This document shows, in pieces, positions 7,929 to 40,736 of a stretch of 40,736 nucleotides of DNA. The notes under the pieces were generated by a model. The model saw nothing but the letters and a program-made list of their open reading frames with translations. It had not been told where the DNA came from and searched no databases. Every line of letters starts with the position of its first letter. Positions within the stretch are counted from its first letter, which is position 1. Both the position numbers and the translations under genes were made by a program. Source of the DNA: an uncultured bacterium (GTDB taxonomy: Bacteria > Cyanobacteriota > Vampirovibrionia > Gastranaerophilales > Gastranaerophilaceae); NCBI GenBank assembly GCA_902760645.1, contig CACWHC010000013.1, positions 44,952 through 85,687 on the forward strand. The letters run 5' to 3'.

Positions 7929-8168
7929 TTATTCCTGAATGAACGAACTCATTCGCCTATCCTCGGGAATTTCGGATAAATCTTGCGGTTGTTGGGACTG
8001 AACATCACCCTGACGTTCTACTGATAATCCTGCCATAAAATTCTGCCGTCTTGTACTGCCTATGATGCTTGTAAAATAATTACCCCGTTCATTGGCTGCA
8101 GTCATCTGCGACATAATTTTTGTCATGTAATGATTTTTTACGCACATATCAAACTTTACGTCCATCAT
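7929..8168 (-). CDS. small protein of unknown function (79 aa)
   Basis: I do not recognise this protein. It is hydrophilic, with no membrane segment; the C-terminal half is rich in Q, R, D and E (VERQGDVQSQQPQDLSEIPED). AAGGAG lies about 10 nt before the first of two adjacent ATGs. Upstream, on the minus strand at 8209-8233, is a degenerate copy of the GCAATTTTT-N10-ATACTT element described elsewhere (ATACTT exact, first block 6 of 9). A hairpin follows the gene. Confidence 0.6.
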   Translation of the reverse strand: MMDVKFDMCVKNHYMTKIMSQMTAANERGNYFTSIIGSTRRQNFMAGLSVERQGDVQSQQPQDLSEIPEDRRMSSFIQE

Positions 8169-8279
8169 TTGGTAAACGCTCCTTTATGTTATATATTTTA
8201 TATATAAAAAGTATAGAACATGAGAATTATTGACAAGTTTTTCAAGTCAAGTTAATAAATATTTACAATCAGCAATTAC

Positions 8280-12815: not shown

Positions 12816-13406
12816 TTAGTATCTTCTATAGCCGTTAGCAGCCCGCTGTCTGTACATTTGTTCGTACATACGCTGCATGTATTCTCTCGGATCTACATAT
12901 TCAAAAGTATCAAAATCACCATAAGGATTTGATGTAACAGTGGACATCTTTATACCTACGTTATTGACATTCTTCATTAACGTCTGGAAAACTTCCGCAA
13001 CACCGGTTACGAAAACGAATAACGCAGCACCGCCACCGAGGAATGACCCCAACCTACCCGTAAACATAGCCTTCATAAAGTTCGGCATTTTAGAAGCCTC
13101 TGCCCAACGAGAAATTTGACCTGTAATATTTTTATAATTAATTCTTAATGCATTTAGTAAAGATTTTGACTGCTTTGCAGGAACTTCAACCGCATTAGTT
13201 ATCTCTGCCGCAGTACCGGACAATGTATTAACTTTGGATGCTGAAGACTTAAAGAATTTTAAAGCACTGCTTCTGCCTGCTGCAGCACTAGCACCTGTTG
13301 CACCCGTAACGGCTGCCGCATCTTCAACCTTATCACGCTTTGAACTGGACTGATTGTCATTACTTGTGTAAGGAATAACGCTACTGTCAATACGTCTAAT
13401 ATCCAT
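12816..13406 (-). CDS. unknown protein with glycine-rich hydrophobic segment
   Basis: No family recognised. The 196-aa product (start ATG 13406, GAGG 8 nt upstream) has an Ala/Gly/Ser-rich stretch (AAAVTGATGASAAAG, about residues 31-45), a hydrophobic segment near residue 125-140 (LGSFLGGGAALFVFVTGVAEVF) and a tyrosine/arginine-rich C-terminus (MQRMYEQMYRQRAANGYRRY). It overlaps the upstream gene by 11 nt, so the two are co-translated. A membrane or envelope-associated role is possible but inferred only from composition. Confidence 0.7.
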   Translation of the reverse strand: MDIRRIDSSVIPYTSNDNQSSSKRDKVEDAAAVTGATGASAAAGRSSALKFFKSSASKVNTLSGTAAEITNAVEVPAKQSKSLLNALRINYKNITGQISRWAEASKMPNFMKAMFTGRLGSFLGGGAALFVFVTGVAEVFQTLMKNVNNVGIKMSTVTSNPYGDFDTFEYVDPREYMQRMYEQMYRQRAANGYRRY

Positions 13407-14217
13407 AGCGTGAACCTCTGTTTCTGCGATAATCAAGACCGTATCTGCCGTCAACTATATACACATCATCATTAATCTGACGAATATCATGTCTGTTACC
13501 GTCAATAGTTTGAGCACCTAACGTATTTATTGCAGCCGTACCGCCGCCTGCAACACCCATTGTTTCAACGAATATACGTTTCGGATTTATCTTTTTCATG
13601 TAATTTACGGCATCATCAATACCGTTTAGCGAACGTCTGTATATAGAACTATTTTTAACTGTATCTTTTATACTTGTATATTTAGTACCTACGGAAGATT
13701 CAAGGAAATCTTTTTTTAGATTTGCAGCTTTATTCTTCATACTAACAACCCAGCTTTGTTTTTCCATACAGGTTTTACCCTTTTGGAATAAATTAGATGC
13801 AGATGTATAAAAGTCTTTTGATAAATTTTTAACACACTTAGCAGGAGCTGTTTTTGCTATATCACTCATAACTTTGAGAGTACCATAAGTACCCCATCTT
13901 AAACCGCCCCAGCCTACTGCGATTGATATTAAACTTGAAAAGATTTTCATGCCGTTATTTAAAACGGGAACTGACTCTGTAGTTCTTGCAATAGAATCAA
14001 TATTCTGCTTTGTTTCCTCCCACAAATCAAGTTCACGTCCTGCTTTTTCTCGTTCTTTGTCTATATCAAAGCGACTTGACTTAACAGATGCTTTACGGGG
14101 GTCGTCAAAAATCTCCTCAAAATCAACATATTCAGCATCATCAAACATGCCTGAACCATATCCGAAAGAAGGATTTTTAGCGTAGCTGCTTGAGATATTC
14201 GGTTGTATAGTTAACAT
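13396..14217 (-). CDS. unknown protein with N-terminal NPSFG motif
   Basis: No family recognised. Start ATG 14217 is set by AGGAG 9 nt upstream and gives 273 aa. The N-terminus is Ser/Asn-rich with YAKNPSFGYGSGMFDDAEY; short aromatic-glycine tags of this kind are my recollection of a feature of Gastranaerophilales proteins. Hydrophobic stretches lie near residues 95-115 (MKIFSSLISIAVGWGGL) and 220-235 (GVAGGGTAAINTLGA). The C-terminus (LDYRRNRGSRYGY) is similar in style to that of its overlapping neighbour, suggesting a functional pair. Confidence 0.7.
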   Translation of the reverse strand: MLTIQPNISSSYAKNPSFGYGSGMFDDAEYVDFEEIFDDPRKASVKSSRFDIDKEREKAGRELDLWEETKQNIDSIARTTESVPVLNNGMKIFSSLISIAVGWGGLRWGTYGTLKVMSDIAKTAPAKCVKNLSKDFYTSASNLFQKGKTCMEKQSWVVSMKNKAANLKKDFLESSVGTKYTSIKDTVKNSSIYRRSLNGIDDAVNYMKKINPKRIFVETMGVAGGGTAAINTLGAQTIDGNRHDIRQINDDVYIVDGRYGLDYRRNRGSRYGY

Positions 14218-14251
14218 ACACACATACTCCTTTACAAAGAGTCGAAAACCC

Positions 14252-14282
14252 CTCAAAAAATTTTTTTGCGTAATTTTTTGAG
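14252..14282 (-). promoter_or_regulatory. AT hairpin in the leader of the NPSFG gene
   Basis: CTCAAAAAATT (14252-14262) and AATTTTTTGAG (14272-14282) form a perfect 11-bp stem with a 9-nt loop, 35 nt before the start codon on the minus strand. It might control translation or mRNA stability; there is no T-run. Confidence 0.35.
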
Positions 14283-17159: not shown

Positions 17160-17972
17160 CTACTTAAAATTTTTCAGATTTGCTTTTGTACCGTTCAGAA
17201 TTTCACCATTACGCTCAACGTATTTTTTCAGGAAAGCCAAAACATTATCCTGACTCATTAACATTTCCCTGTCCCAACCCGGATATGCAGATTGCATGCC
17301 CATTTTGTGATACAAAGCTTTATTGTTATACCCACGCCCCATAAATCTGCTTACATTTTCGGCAAAAGCCTTCAGTTTCGGGACATAACCCTGCCGCAAA
17401 CAATCCTCAACAACCGTTTGCAGCAATATCTTTTCAAGATTTTTATATTTTTTACGACCAAGAATTGTATTGAGGTAGTTTATATATACAATACTGTCAT
17501 CACTTTGCATAATACTTACATAGCCAAGCTGTTTTTCTTTATTCTTTATTACATAAACTATATCTCTGCCGACACCGCCGTCAGAATATTCACCAAAATC
17601 CACTTTATCAATTTGTGCAACAATATCTTTGCGGTTTCTGCCTTTTACCGGAACGGAAGCAAGCCTCTTTACCGATGATATCGGGACATCAAAAAATCCG
17701 GGAGAAATAATTTGTGCATTATGAATTACATTAGCTTTTATGTAGTCCCAAAAGCCTATTCCAAGTGCTCTGCTGTATCTTCTTAACTGTCTTACGGACT
17801 CTTTAATTCCATCGCAGGTGTATTCCTCAGCACTTATTCCATTATTTAAAGAAGATATGTGCAGGACACTACCACCCTCAGCCACAGCCGGCCGGGCATA
17901 AAATTTTGTTCTGAAATTGTGGGAAACTTTTTGAGCATAGTCGTAAGACTGCTTAAAAATACCTACCTTCAT
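17160..17972 (-). CDS. GNAT-like acetyltransferase (tentative)
   Basis: The 270-aa protein has in its C-terminal half a strand-helix order resembling the GNAT fold: IVYVIKNKEKQLGYVSIMQ, then YINYLNTIL, LEKILLQTVVEDCLRQGYVP, LKAFAENV and YNNKALYHKMGM, which recalls the N..A..LYxKxGF end of acetyltransferases. The N-terminal 110 residues are unrecognised. The usual Q/RxxGxG/A acetyl-CoA loop is not obvious, so catalytic activity is uncertain. The SD is AGGA at 11 nt. A copy of the GCAATTTTT element lies 37-61 nt upstream. Confidence 0.5.
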   Translation of the reverse strand: MKVGIFKQSYDYAQKVSHNFRTKFYARPAVAEGGSVLHISSLNNGISAEEYTCDGIKESVRQLRRYSRALGIGFWDYIKANVIHNAQIISPGFFDVPISSVKRLASVPVKGRNRKDIVAQIDKVDFGEYSDGGVGRDIVYVIKNKEKQLGYVSIMQSDDSIVYINYLNTILGRKKYKNLEKILLQTVVEDCLRQGYVPKLKAFAENVSRFMGRGYNNKALYHKMGMQSAYPGWDREMLMSQDNVLAFLKKYVERNGEILNGTKANLKNFK

Positions 17973-17995: not shown

Positions 17996-18033
17996 CCTTA
18001 GATATATAAAGTATTCTCGCATAAAAAAATTGC
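17996..18033 (-). promoter_or_regulatory. copy 1 of the GCAATTTTT-N10-ATACTT element
   Basis: On the minus strand: GCAATTTTT (18025-18033), 10 nt, ATACTT (18009-18014), 8 nt, TAAGG (17996-18000). It begins at the last base of the histidine kinase stop codon and ends 23 nt before the GNAT-like gene. The same blocks and the same 10-nt spacing recur at 22106-22145, 35913-35952 and 32143-32182. Confidence 0.65.
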
Positions 18034-21868: not shown

Positions 21869-22078
21869 TTATGCGTTTAATCTTCCATTCTTTAAGATAT
21901 TATATTTATTTTCAGATTTACCAAGATATTTATCTATGGATTTTGATACCAATGCCGAGCGTTTTTTGGTTTCATTATCAAGAGTGCCTAAATATTCTTC
22001 AACAGAACATACTGTATAATCACCAAAGAATTCTTCTAAAGTAGACATCGTGTAATTTTTTACAACTGTATTTTCCAT
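21869..22078 (-). CDS. small orphan protein, KRS/KYL family (69 aa)
   Basis: I do not recognise a named family, but this protein is clearly paralogous to the 61-aa protein at 32459. They share S(V/I)(E/D)EY(L/F)xxLDxExxKRSxxVxKS(I/L)xKYL at about residues 27-55, followed by a KY-L ending. It is hydrophilic and probably helical. Start ATG 22078 has AAGGG about 10 nt upstream. The region upstream carries copy 2 of the GCAATTTTT element, and the other paralog's locus also has a copy. Confidence 0.75.
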   Translation of the reverse strand: MENTVVKNYTMSTLEEFFGDYTVCSVEEYLGTLDNETKKRSALVSKSIDKYLGKSENKYNILKNGRLNA

Positions 22079-22105: not shown

Positions 22106-22145
22106 CCTTACATATATATAAAGTATTTTTGTATAAAAAAATTGC
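22106..22145 (-). promoter_or_regulatory. copy 2 of the GCAATTTTT-N10-ATACTT element
   Basis: On the minus strand: GCAATTTTT (22137-22145), 10 nt, ATACTT (22121-22126), 10 nt, TAAGG (22106-22110). From TATATATG through TAAGGGA it is identical to copy 4 at 32143-32182. It ends 27 nt before the 69-aa gene. Confidence 0.7.
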
Positions 22146-32074: not shown

Positions 32075-32142
32075 GTTTAAAAAATGTATATAGTCAGTAT
32101 AAACTTTTGTTAAGATATTTATAAAGAATATATATCTTTTAA

Positions 32143-32182
32143 GCAATTTTTATTAAGTTAAATACTTATTATATATGTAAGG
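32143..32182 (+). promoter_or_regulatory. copy 4 of the GCAATTTTT-N10-ATACTT element
   Basis: GCAATTTTT (32143-32151), 10 nt, ATACTT (32162-32167), 10 nt, TAAGG (32178-32182), 41 nt before the RHH gene. It is the only copy on the plus strand and precedes a plus-strand gene, so orientation relative to the gene is kept in all copies. Confidence 0.7.
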
Positions 32183-32223: not shown

Positions 32224-32412
32224 ATGGCAAGAGTATTAATTTCAATGCCGGAACGTTTTTTAGACGAAATAGACAACGTGGCAAATGAAGAAAACAGAAC
32301 CCGTTCTGAACTTATAAGGGAAGCTCTCAGAACTTATATGTACAGAAATCAGGTTAGAAATTCCAACAAAGCGATTAAAAATGCAGAAATTTTAGAATCA
32401 CTACTTGGCTAA
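32224..32412 (+). CDS. ribbon-helix-helix (CopG/MetJ-type) regulator
   Basis: The 62-aa protein has a ribbon strand (RVLISMPERFLDEID) and two helices (VANEENRTRSELIREALRTYM), the RHH fold that binds DNA as dimer of dimers. Such proteins are often antitoxins or local repressors. No MazF/PemK or RelE toxin gene follows; instead a 61-aa protein of the KRS/KYL family begins 46 nt downstream. GAGG precedes ATG by 8 nt. Confidence 0.9.
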   Translation: MARVLISMPERFLDEIDNVANEENRTRSELIREALRTYMYRNQVRNSNKAIKNAEILESLLG

Positions 32413-32433
32413 ATTTAAAAAATAGGTTATAAT
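32405..32433 (+). promoter_or_regulatory. internal promoter for the 61-aa gene
   Basis: TTGGCT (32405-32410, overlapping the end of the RHH gene), 17 nt, perfect TATAAT (32428-32433). It would allow the small protein to be made separately from the RHH regulator. Confidence 0.6.
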
Positions 32434-32458
32434 TGTGGAAAGAAAGGAATAGTGGAAA

Positions 32459-32644
32459 ATGGTTAATGGAAATCTTGAAAATGGACAGGGGTATGTAATG
32501 TCCTCCATAGATGAATATTTTGAAATTCTTGACAGAGAAGCTCAAAAACGTTCGAAAATGGTTGCAAAATCTTTAACAAAATATTTAAAAAACATTCAAA
32601 CAAATACTAAATATGATGAATTAAAGACTTCTGCAGCAAGGTAA
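32459..32644 (+). CDS. small orphan protein, KRS/KYL family (61 or 48 aa)
   Basis: A paralog of the 69-aa protein at 21869-22078: SIDEYFEILDREAQKRSKM, VAKSLTKYLKN and a KYDELK ending align with SVEEYLGTLDNETKKRSAL, VSKSIDKYLGK and KYNILK. The start is either ATG 32459 or ATG 32498; the latter has GGGG 6 nt upstream and begins just before the shared part. It follows the RHH regulator and ends at a terminator. Function unknown. Confidence 0.75.
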   Translation: MVNGNLENGQGYVMSSIDEYFEILDREAQKRSKMVAKSLTKYLKNIQTNTKYDELKTSAAR

Positions 32645-35597: not shown

Positions 35598-35840
35598 TTA
35601 TTGATACGCATTACGGGATCTGTTATATTTTGCATTTCTGGCATTTACTGCGTAACACGCTATATTAAGACGTTGTTTTAACGCCATCATATTACGATAC
35701 ATACTTGCATAATCATTCATTGCTCCCATCATCTTTTCGGGATCAACCATTGATTCCATATCTTCGTGATTATCGACTTTTTCTTCTGCGTATTTCTTGA
35801 CCAAGAGTTGATCAATGTAATCTTCTGCTCCGACTGACAT
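35598..35840 (-). CDS. small methionine-rich helical protein (80 aa), unknown
   Basis: No family recognised. The protein is acidic at the start (EDYIDQLLVKKYAEEK), methionine-rich in the middle (MESMVDPEKMMGAMNDYASMYRNMM in pieces) and basic at the end (NARNAKYNRSRNAYQ). GGGAGG lies 5 nt before ATG. Copy 3 of the GCAATTTTT element lies about 73-112 nt upstream. Confidence 0.65.
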   Translation of the reverse strand: MSVGAEDYIDQLLVKKYAEEKVDNHEDMESMVDPEKMMGAMNDYASMYRNMMALKQRLNIACYAVNARNAKYNRSRNAYQ

Positions 35841-35912: not shown

Positions 35913-35952
35913 CCTTATATAATTATTAAGTATTTTTTTTCGGAAAAATTGC
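35913..35952 (-). promoter_or_regulatory. copy 3 of the GCAATTTTT-N10-ATACTT element
   Basis: On the minus strand: GCAATTTTT (35944-35952), 10 nt, ATACTT (35928-35933), 10 nt, TAAGG (35913-35917). It precedes the 80-aa gene by 72 nt, further than in the other copies. Confidence 0.65.
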
Positions 35953-36001
35953 TATAATTTTACGATTTATTACAAATTCTTAACAAAAAAGTATATAATT
36001 T

Positions 36002-39226: not shown

Positions 39227-40736
39227 CTAATGTGCATCAAAGTAATCTTTGATTATATTAGGATCATTGCTCTTAACTTTAACATTTAAGTTTGCATCAT
39301 TCTTACGAGCTTCGACTTTGATATTGCCCGGAGCAACAGCCTGTTCAACAACACCATTTCTGATGATATCAGCATCGATACTGCCGCCTTTTGATTTAAT
39401 TATATTGAAGTTAACATCTTCGCCGACCTCTTCGCCACGAGCGTGTAAGTAAATATCCTGACCTGCTAAGACATTAGACTGCTGTGATGCATCTGTTTGT
39501 CTGAAGTGAAGCGGTGCAGCTCCTGTACCGATTGAACCGCTTGACATTAACTGAACAGTAGTACCTTTTACGTTAGCGTAATCACCAAGTTCAGTAGCTG
39601 CATTCAGGATAGAACCTGTTTTAACATTGCCTTCACTGTCAACAGCCTTGTCGGTCAACAATAATACTTTACCGTCAGCCTTAATTCTGTCAACTCTGAG
39701 GTCTTTACCTTTGCTTGCAATGTTAATAGCACTGTTCTTCTTTTCATCCGTAGTAAATGCTTTAACTCTGCCGTTTACATATACATTAACAGATTTTGTC
39801 AAATCTCTTGCATCTGCACCAACTCCGGTTGAGCCTTCGACATCTTCACCTATAGAACCGTTATTTGCAGCCATATAGAGGTTTCCGCCGGATTTGATAA
39901 GATGAGTATCAACACCTGCATTCAGGATACTGCCATCATCTGTAGTAATAAATACTTTCTTCTTACCGTTAATTGCGATTTGATTTGTTTCTTTATTACC
40001 TAAGACAATATCGTTACCTTTTGAGTATGCCGTAACTTTATTACCTCTGACTGTACCGTCAACAACCATATTCTTGTCACCGGTATTAGTCAAGACAACA
40101 TTGTTCTTTGTAGAAGTTACATTAGATGATACATTCATACCACCTGCTCTGTTGGTAAGAAGGACATGTCCGCCGCTAACAACAGGTGCATCAACTGTCA
40201 TACCGCCTTTACCGGTATTAGTCAGGTAAATTCTGCCAAGACCTTCACCGATAACCGTTGCACCATCGTTAACTTTTAATGCACCGTCACCTGTGTTATG
40301 AACACTGAGTCGAGCACCGGTAACTTTAACATCACCAGCGATATTCAAGTCACCGCCCTTGTTGTACATAACAGTATAACCTTTGTTATCAACTAAACCG
40401 TTAACAGCCAATCCATTAGCACCTGAGTTTTGAACAACCAGTTGTCCTTTTTCAGAACCGACTTTACCTGAATCAGCTATAACAAGAGCACCGTTACCTT
40501 TATTTGTTAAATTAATATCACCATTTTTACTTGTAACAGAACCGTTTACGGTCATATTACCCTGATAGTTAGCAACAGCAGTACCACCACCGTTATTGGA
40601 AACAGCACCGTTAATATTCATGCCGCCGGCACCGTTGCCCATAATTTGGATTTTATTGTTGTTTGAAATTTTGGCACCTTCAGCAATAGTTAAGCCGCCA
40701 TCGCCTGTGTTACCGATATATACACGGTTGCCATCA
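39227..40736 (-). CDS. large beta-helix adhesin, C-terminal part (5' end off the window)
   Basis: The frame stays open to the right edge (reading DGNRVYIGNTGDGGLTIAEG just before the edge), so this is a 3' fragment of a longer gene; the ATG at 40642 is internal. About 500 residues of G/N/V/T-rich repeats of ~20-25 aa (NTGDGALKVNDGATV, NTGKGGMTVDAPVV, NTGDKNMVVDGTV) predict a parallel beta-helix like filamentous haemagglutinin or LktA-type adhesins. No autotransporter barrel or sorting motif is seen at the C-terminus (NDPNIIKDYFDAH), so export may use a partner protein. Confidence 0.85.
   Translation of the reverse strand, partial: DGNRVYIGNTGDGGLTIAEGAKISNNNKIQIMGNGAGGMNINGAVSNNGGGTAVANYQGNMTVNGSVTSKNGDINLTNKGNGALVIADSGKVGSEKGQLVVQNSGANGLAVNGLVDNKGYTVMYNKGGDLNIAGDVKVTGARLSVHNTGDGALKVNDGATVIGEGLGRIYLTNTGKGGMTVDAPVVSGGHVLLTNRAGGMNVSSNVTSTKNNVVLTNTGDKNMVVDGTVRGNKVTAYSKGNDIVLGNKETNQIAINGKKKVFITTDDGSILNAGVDTHLIKSGGNLYMAANNGSIGEDVEGSTGVGADARDLTKSVNVYVNGRVKAFTTDEKKNSAINIASKGKDLRVDRIKADGKVLLLTDKAVDSEGNVKTGSILNAATELGDYANVKGTTVQLMSSGSIGTGAAPLHFRQTDASQQSNVLAGQDIYLHARGEEVGEDVNFNIIKSKGGSIDADIIRNGVVEQAVAPGNIKVEARKNDANLNVKVKSNDPNIIKDYFDAH

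Follow-up and report, generated by a model that had tools for sequence, protein, structure and literature searches.

The stretch of DNA analysed here, called the window in what follows, covers 40,736 nt (44952-85687 of contig C13) of the 1.96 Mb genome of an uncultured member of the Gastranaerophilales. Its intergenic space holds four copies of a promoter-like element, each standing before an ORF read in the same direction (Table 1). The 270-aa protein has look-alikes behind the same promoter, one elsewhere in this genome (L113) and one in a relative (L044); small proteins similar to the 69-aa one, whose ATG is most likely at 22078 rather than 22102, follow the same promoter in relatives (L041, L125, L140); and the arrangement of the 80-aa gene with its promoter recurs in a further relative (L049). 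The 61-aa gene probably shares a transcript with the ribbon-helix-helix gene before it. Together the two (32224-32644) give the impression of a small module, to which the 69-aa protein at 21869 would be a stand-alone paralogue. Towards the end of the window (39227-40642, minus strand) lies a long repetitive ORF; its repeats are rich in glycine and asparagine, and by eye it resembles an adhesin or haemagglutinin.

Table 1. Promoter copies, genes behind them and upstream repeats in the window, with two small RNA candidates from elsewhere in the same genome (positions are those of the window unless a contig is named).
Feature	Position	Strand	Remarks
Promoter copy 1	17996..18033	-	GCAATTTTT-N10-ATACTTTATATATC-TAAGG (33-nt form); exact match; model R1 33.5 bits, E 7.4e-8; matrix 33.6
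Promoter copy 2	22106..22145	-	Exact match; R1 46.2 bits, E 7.8e-12; top-scoring copy genome-wide
Promoter copy 3	32143..32182	+	Exact match; R1 32.6 bits, E 1.5e-7
Promoter copy 4	35913..35952	-	Exact match; R1 35.3 bits, E 2.1e-8
Marginal copy (TCAATAATT ... TATACTTTTTATATA)	8190..8251	-	Precedes 79-aa gene 7929-8168; E 0.286
270-aa protein, function not known	17160..17972	-	Start 61 nt from promoter G
69-aa protein (MENTVVKNY...), function not known	21869..22078	-	Start 67 nt from promoter G
62-aa ribbon-helix-helix protein (MARVLISMPERF...)	32224..32412	+	Start 81 nt from promoter G; RHH_1 among scanned proteins
61-aa protein resembling the 69-aa protein	32459..32644	+	From sequence
80-aa protein (MSVGAEDYIDQLL...), function not known	35598..35840	-	Start 112 nt from promoter G
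TTGTTAAG and weak second repeat 11 nt on	32107..32125	+	Upstream of copy 3; possible OmpR-type site
Direct repeats TTGTTAAG / TTTGTAAT, 11 nt apart	35968..35986	-	Upstream of copy 4; possible OmpR-type site
S3, small RNA candidate	C3:18313
S4, small RNA candidate, ORF-less (L084)	C15:71782	+

The element had been noticed, in an earlier note, as four copies placed upstream of genes and codirectional with them. The pattern GCAATTTTT-N10-ATACTT-N(6-12)-TAAGG indeed returns exactly these four in the window, on the strands then given, and none in 100 dinucleotide shuffles of it, while the ATG of the ORF behind lies 61, 67, 81 and 112 nt from the G. At copy 1 we would place the start of transcription near TAAGG. 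Two weaker copies, also proposed, fared less well. The one at 8209-8233, before a 79-aa gene, is marginal (E 0.29); it is picked up by its downstream half only and has two extra bases in ATACTTTTTATATA. The one before a BlaI-like gene was rejected as a member of the regulon because the T-run in it forms the tail of an intrinsic terminator, the model gives it an E of only 0.18, and the gene has its own TTGCCA-N16-TACAAT.

The extent of the two blocks needed revision. Alignment of 38 exact copies displays a longer conserved block, GCAATTTTT-n8-A(A/T)-ATACTTTATATA-(t/a)atgTAAGgg. These copies were selected by the pattern itself, and therefore two selection-free checks of its shape were made. Among intergenic sites of this genome (440 kb) chosen by the downstream half only, the upstream box appears at a fixed offset (A 96%, A 91%, T 83%, T 74%). 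The promoters of a small RNA described below, S1, located by sequence inside the RNA, give (G/T)(C/A)AATT for the upstream box and nnACTTTAT(A/T)(A/T)A, then GTAAGGG, downstream; within (A/T)ATACT their third base is T in 77% and A in 23%, with ACTTTAT nearly constant. It follows from both that the first block is really shorter than first read and the second longer, ATACTTTATATA and not ATACTT. Read from these alignments, the core is (G/T)(C/A)AATT-N15-ACTTTATA, then TAAGG. The 16-nt spacing of AAT-N16-ACTT is fixed, and the least constrained parts are the last T of the first block and the exact place of TAAGG, which shifts by about 2 bases among copies. Two other shapes were tried and discarded: a palindromic operator (ATTTTT-N5-AAAAAT), because the A-run is missing from many genuine copies (GTATATACTT type), and a MerR-type 19-nt spacer, which comes with no palindrome.

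The element is anything but randomly placed. A matrix trained on relatives only (62 training sites, 4 of them S1 loci) finds 19 above-threshold matches in 440 kb of fetched stretches of this genome, on which the background was estimated, and 0 in ten third-order Markov shuffles. None of the 19 lies inside a gene, though intergenic DNA makes up only about 10% of the sample, where genes were called with a simple script; 16 of the 19 face a same-strand start 43-112 nt downstream. Of the other three, one stands 57 nt before a 112-aa ORF that the script had missed, one before an ORF truncated by the edge of a stretch, and one before the small RNA S3. At the 87 sites followed by an ORF, the start codon is most often 60-64 nt from the G. 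Genome-wide, the exact GCAATTTTT-N10-ATACTT has 8 matches against 0 for a backwards control pattern, and a sequence-only model finds about 30 copies at E < 0.015. The promoter-like reading of the earlier note thus holds: orientation-specific, intergenic and enriched just upstream of starts, the element appears to define a regulon. The sequence-based outcomes that the note had named as refuting it, matches as common inside genes, on random strands or in shuffled sequence, were looked for and not seen.

Exact copies occur in 36 of 38 genomes related at levels from genus to order, where controls are near zero. In a set of 292 genomes of the phylum, all 131 members of the order were matched at E 1e-4 or better, with 2 to at least 21 matches each, and the remaining 161 (among them 5 of the sister class, and Cyanobacteria) gave no match at that level. 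Three sister-class matches (L163-L165) proved on inspection to be partial and AT-rich only. Within the collections searched, which are mostly of metagenome-assembled genomes and to which any absence refers, the element is, by sequence matching, specific to the order Candidatus Gastranaerophilales. It was seen in every family from f2 to f7, at lower copy number in f3 and in one f4 genome, G025; genomes of the main family have about 15-30 units. A phage origin was considered and rejected: the motif is present in only 10 IMG/VR contigs, and the one inspected (L326) holds ordinary bacterial genes. On a separate note, several similar-scoring copies of the promoter sit at contig ends in one relative, G200 (positions 21-113 of C10, C27, C28 and C31), which suggests a multi-copy family that breaks the assembly.

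What does this promoter control? Only a few of 66 downstream proteins match Pfam, most being without a known family. The matches are CHAP (3), glucosaminidase (2), SLT transglycosylase, phage-type lysozyme and RHH, to which are added HEAT repeats, an HD domain, dockerin and collagen-like repeats. A regulon of small proteins had been proposed. The regulon stands, but the restriction to small proteins does not: lengths run from 62 to 381 aa between the 10th and 90th percentiles, and peptidoglycan hydrolases, HEAT-repeat and HD-domain proteins are included, as are non-coding RNAs. A short N-terminal FG stretch (SFGYG, KFG, RFGSF, QFGSLT) was seen in many otherwise unrelated proteins, among them one of the window (13396-14256, minus strand) and regulon members L002, L024, L028, L051 and L052; it might be a shared targeting signal.

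Behind several copies of the element a terminator is found instead of an ORF. One of these RNAs, S1, contains CUCUCUCUUAAUAUCCUCGUG, a core of 21 nt that was found in 93 of the 95 genomes of family f1 (at most 3 mismatches, most exact), usually as a single copy, and in none of 22 genomes of f2-f7. In another genome collection, 70 of 74 S1 loci, found by their core, have the promoter 50-220 nt upstream, whereas only 2 of 398 control windows do. A terminator-type T-run follows just behind in 70 of the 74 loci; their promoter sequences are nearly all different. The terminator stems vary among genomes with pairing kept (TGCTTG/CAAGCA, GTTTGC/GCAAAC, GTTGCC/GGCAAC). These stems were compared one by one, RNAalifold having returned no structure from the S1 alignment, probably because of gaps around the terminator. 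A second RNA, S2 (ACTAACCTT...ACACGAG), is found in 63 of the 95 f1 genomes, and all 33 of its loci that were located without using the promoter have it 82-123 nt upstream. Pyrimidine-rich RNAs also follow the promoter in f4 (L159) and f6 (L055). Rfam, run against 12 small-RNA loci, gave nothing above the gathering score except two tRNAs. By all these signs, the same putative promoter drives non-coding small RNAs as well as proteins. Public genome records matching the S1 core are mostly titled 'Candidatus Gastranaerophilales bacterium' or 'uncultured Candidatus Melainabacteria', and animal guts are the source of many; a few (L349, L352, L391, L394, L395, L396) are labelled Muribaculaceae, Fusobacterium, Heliobacteriaceae, Clostridia or Acinetobacter, and are probably mislabelled Gastranaerophilales.

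The sequences of these RNAs point to partners within the regulon. In 29 of 33 copies of S2, 13-16 consecutive nucleotides (AUUAAAUAAACACGAG) show perfect complementarity to CUCGUGUUUAUUUAAU, a stretch of S1 that hardly varies (mean z -3.4 against dinucleotide shuffles), and in G187 the complementary bases have been lost from both RNAs. In the present genome one A is missing from the S2 site, which interrupts the match, and S1-S2 pairing computed over the full length falls only some 2 SD below shuffles. Predicted pairing of S1 with the leaders of this genome's regulon averages -12.7 kcal/mol, against -9.7 for 379 other leaders (p 0.001), a preference exceeding that of shuffled S1 segments. It is weak on average in relatives (mean z -0.8), where the best cases (L143, L033, L057) have 10-13 nt of perfect complement at GAGAGAG, where the ribosome-binding site would lie. 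Strong pairing of S2 is limited to a few GUAGUGU leaders (L080, L078), and S3 displays no significant general preference for regulon leaders. S4 contains GAGAGAGAGAG and CCUAUUCCUAACCUUCC, partly complementary to S1, and could possibly be a further sponge RNA.

Upstream of the core, TGTTAA is found in 25.5% of regulon upstream regions as compared with 4.8% of intergenic controls, and TTNA-N6/7-TTNAC pairs (10-11 bp) in 19% as compared with 2.6%, the enriched repeats occupying roughly -35 to -31 and -25 to -21 relative to the G. By their geometry, these repeats suggest a site for an activator of the OmpR/PhoB type. They resemble the HLR1 sites of cyanobacterial RpaB in being TTNAC-type direct repeats with a 10-11 bp period upstream of promoters, and differ from them in that the strict form, TTNAC-N5-TTNAC, occurs in only about 6% of element sites (6.4%, against 0.4% of intergenic controls).

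The element was compared with known types of promoter. At none of the four window sites is there a match of at least 10/12 to sigma-70 boxes (TTGACA/TATAAT, 16-18 nt apart), and TTGACA occurs in 1.1% of regulon upstream regions and 2.2% of controls. The element consensus has no -10 box resembling the GCCGATAA of FliA/WhiG promoters (TAAA-N15-GCCGATAA), nor the bases of sigma-54 promoters (GG-N10-GC, -24/-12). The promoters of ECF sigma factors, with the consensus AAC-N16/17-CGT, come nearer: like those of SigW and RpoE, the element has two short boxes at fixed spacing, a -35 with AA and then a T-run, and the N16 geometry. Its -35, however, ends in T rather than C (AAT, not AAC), and its -10 is ACTTTATA, not of the CGTA, CGTC, TCTGA or TC type. 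We know of no sigma consensus that matches this -10 box.

Taken as a whole, we think it probable that the element is the core promoter of an order-specific alternative sigma factor, with a regulon of proteins and pairing small RNAs. A non-housekeeping sigma factor would read (G/T)(C/A)AATT as -35 and ACTTTATA as -10 at fixed spacing, transcription starting at or near TAAGG and the ATG coming after a leader of some 20-30 nt. The TTGTTAA / GTAACA direct repeats that immediately precede the core, spaced by about 11 bp, are probably the site of an OmpR/PhoB-type activator. The regulon would consist of lineage-specific proteins mostly of no known function, some cell-wall hydrolases and several small RNAs. 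Among the latter, S1 would base-pair through CUCUCUCUCUU with the purine-rich leaders of the regulon (AAGAGAGAGAG), and through CUCGUGUUUAUUUAAU with AUUAAAUAAACACGAG of S2. If the RNAs do pair with the leaders of their own regulon and with each other, then one switch would make both the messages and their regulators. We propose more tentatively, and with some doubt, that a sigma factor restricted to the Gastranaerophilales runs this one promoter for proteins and for leader-pairing, mutually sponging RNAs, as a self-contained circuit common to the order.

Which sigma factor would do this? The earlier note knew of no sigma factor or regulator with such a pattern, and this still stands: the recogniser was not found, and the literature searched on the lineage gave nothing relevant. 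The genome codes for eight proteins with a sigma region 2. In trees built from ten genomes, four clades, of types L091, L092, L093 and the ECF-like L095, are present in the order and in neither of two sister-class genomes nor in one cyanobacterium. Because all four share the distribution of the element, no single one is picked out. None of the order-specific sigma genes has a copy of the element directly upstream, hence there is no sign of autoregulation, and a search for a conserved neighbouring copy did not identify a sigma factor either. We consider L091 less likely, since it keeps RpoD-like recognition residues.

Two candidates for which a case was made are variants of the alternative-sigma reading, and their likelihoods are part of its own, not additions to it. 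The diverged RpoD-like L093 type, which we see as a possible but rather unlikely recogniser, has a distinctive -35 recognition helix, TKECIRQTELRA, nearly invariant across the order, unlike that of RpoD. It scores 397-493 bits in members of the order and at most 295 in the sister class, and the gene, absent from the sister class, is present throughout the order except in G025 and the fragmentary G036. Yet G025 is 99% complete and carries the element; a sigma-70-like -10 would need spacers of 14 or 19 nt; and autoregulation was not seen. A palindromic stretch, TAGTATATACTATAGTATATACTA, lies just upstream of the L093 ORF (contig C3), and is possibly that gene's own operator. The L095 type is the best fit by promoter spacing, AAT-N16-ACTT having that of ECF promoters, and its clade is represented in each of the seven order genomes examined but not in the sister class. 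Against this, the -10 box reads ACTTTA instead of CGT or TC, the sequences of the clade diverge quickly although those of the promoter are almost constant, and no copy of the element is found upstream of L095, nor of L094; that L095 reads the promoter is, we think, unlikely.

The recogniser might instead be the housekeeping sigma factor helped by a dedicated activator, which would bind GCAATTTTT or the TTGTTAA repeats and leave (A/T)ATACT or TATATA to act as a degenerate -10. RpoD is present in every genome whose sigma factors were listed, (A/T)ATACT resembles TATAAT, and the enriched TTGTTAA/GTAACA repeats have the geometry of OmpR sites. However, neither candidate -10 has a TTGACA-like box 16-18 nt away, the variable third base of (A/T)ATACT in S1 promoters contrasts with the nearly constant ACTTTAT, and the fixed two-box spacing, together with absence outside the order, is more sigma-like; we hold this explanation to be unlikely. 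Far less credible is an RNA leader motif or translation signal: TAAGG and the purine-rich stretch are probably in the transcript or at its edge, but conservation is strongest 25-60 nt further upstream of the start codon, and the element also serves non-coding RNAs with otherwise unrelated 5' parts. A dispersed repeat or mobile element, which the density of the window might evoke (4 copies in 41 kb, where the genome rate predicts about 0.6), can be dismissed almost entirely, as spacer, flanks (none conserved beyond the boxes was seen among copies) and downstream genes differ and orientation follows the genes.

For the preferred alternative-sigma reading there are precedents, at least in parts. 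RsaE/RoxS and RepG are small RNAs with C/U-rich seeds directed against Shine-Dalgarno regions, and S1 is likewise a pyrimidine-rich, terminator-ended RNA able to cover ribosome-binding sites. It differs from them in having no Rfam match and a 21-nt core that is nearly invariant family-wide and limited to the Gastranaerophilaceae among the genomes searched. The Sigma-E regulon of enterobacteria includes the small RNAs RybB and MicA besides proteins (PMC1804206), and thus also associates both in one alternative-sigma regulon; its promoter is another one and its RNAs are unrelated, whereas here the RNAs are predicted to pair with the leaders of their own regulon and with each other.

The Gastranaerophilales are common, uncultured, non-photosynthetic relatives of cyanobacteria living in animal guts. 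The literature searched described neither their promoters nor any alternative sigma factors or small RNAs of theirs, and their gene regulation appears to be unstudied. The promoter model annotates 15-30 transcription units in each genome of the main family. The putative regulon ties together dozens of proteins without known function, and the small-RNA families gain concrete predicted targets.
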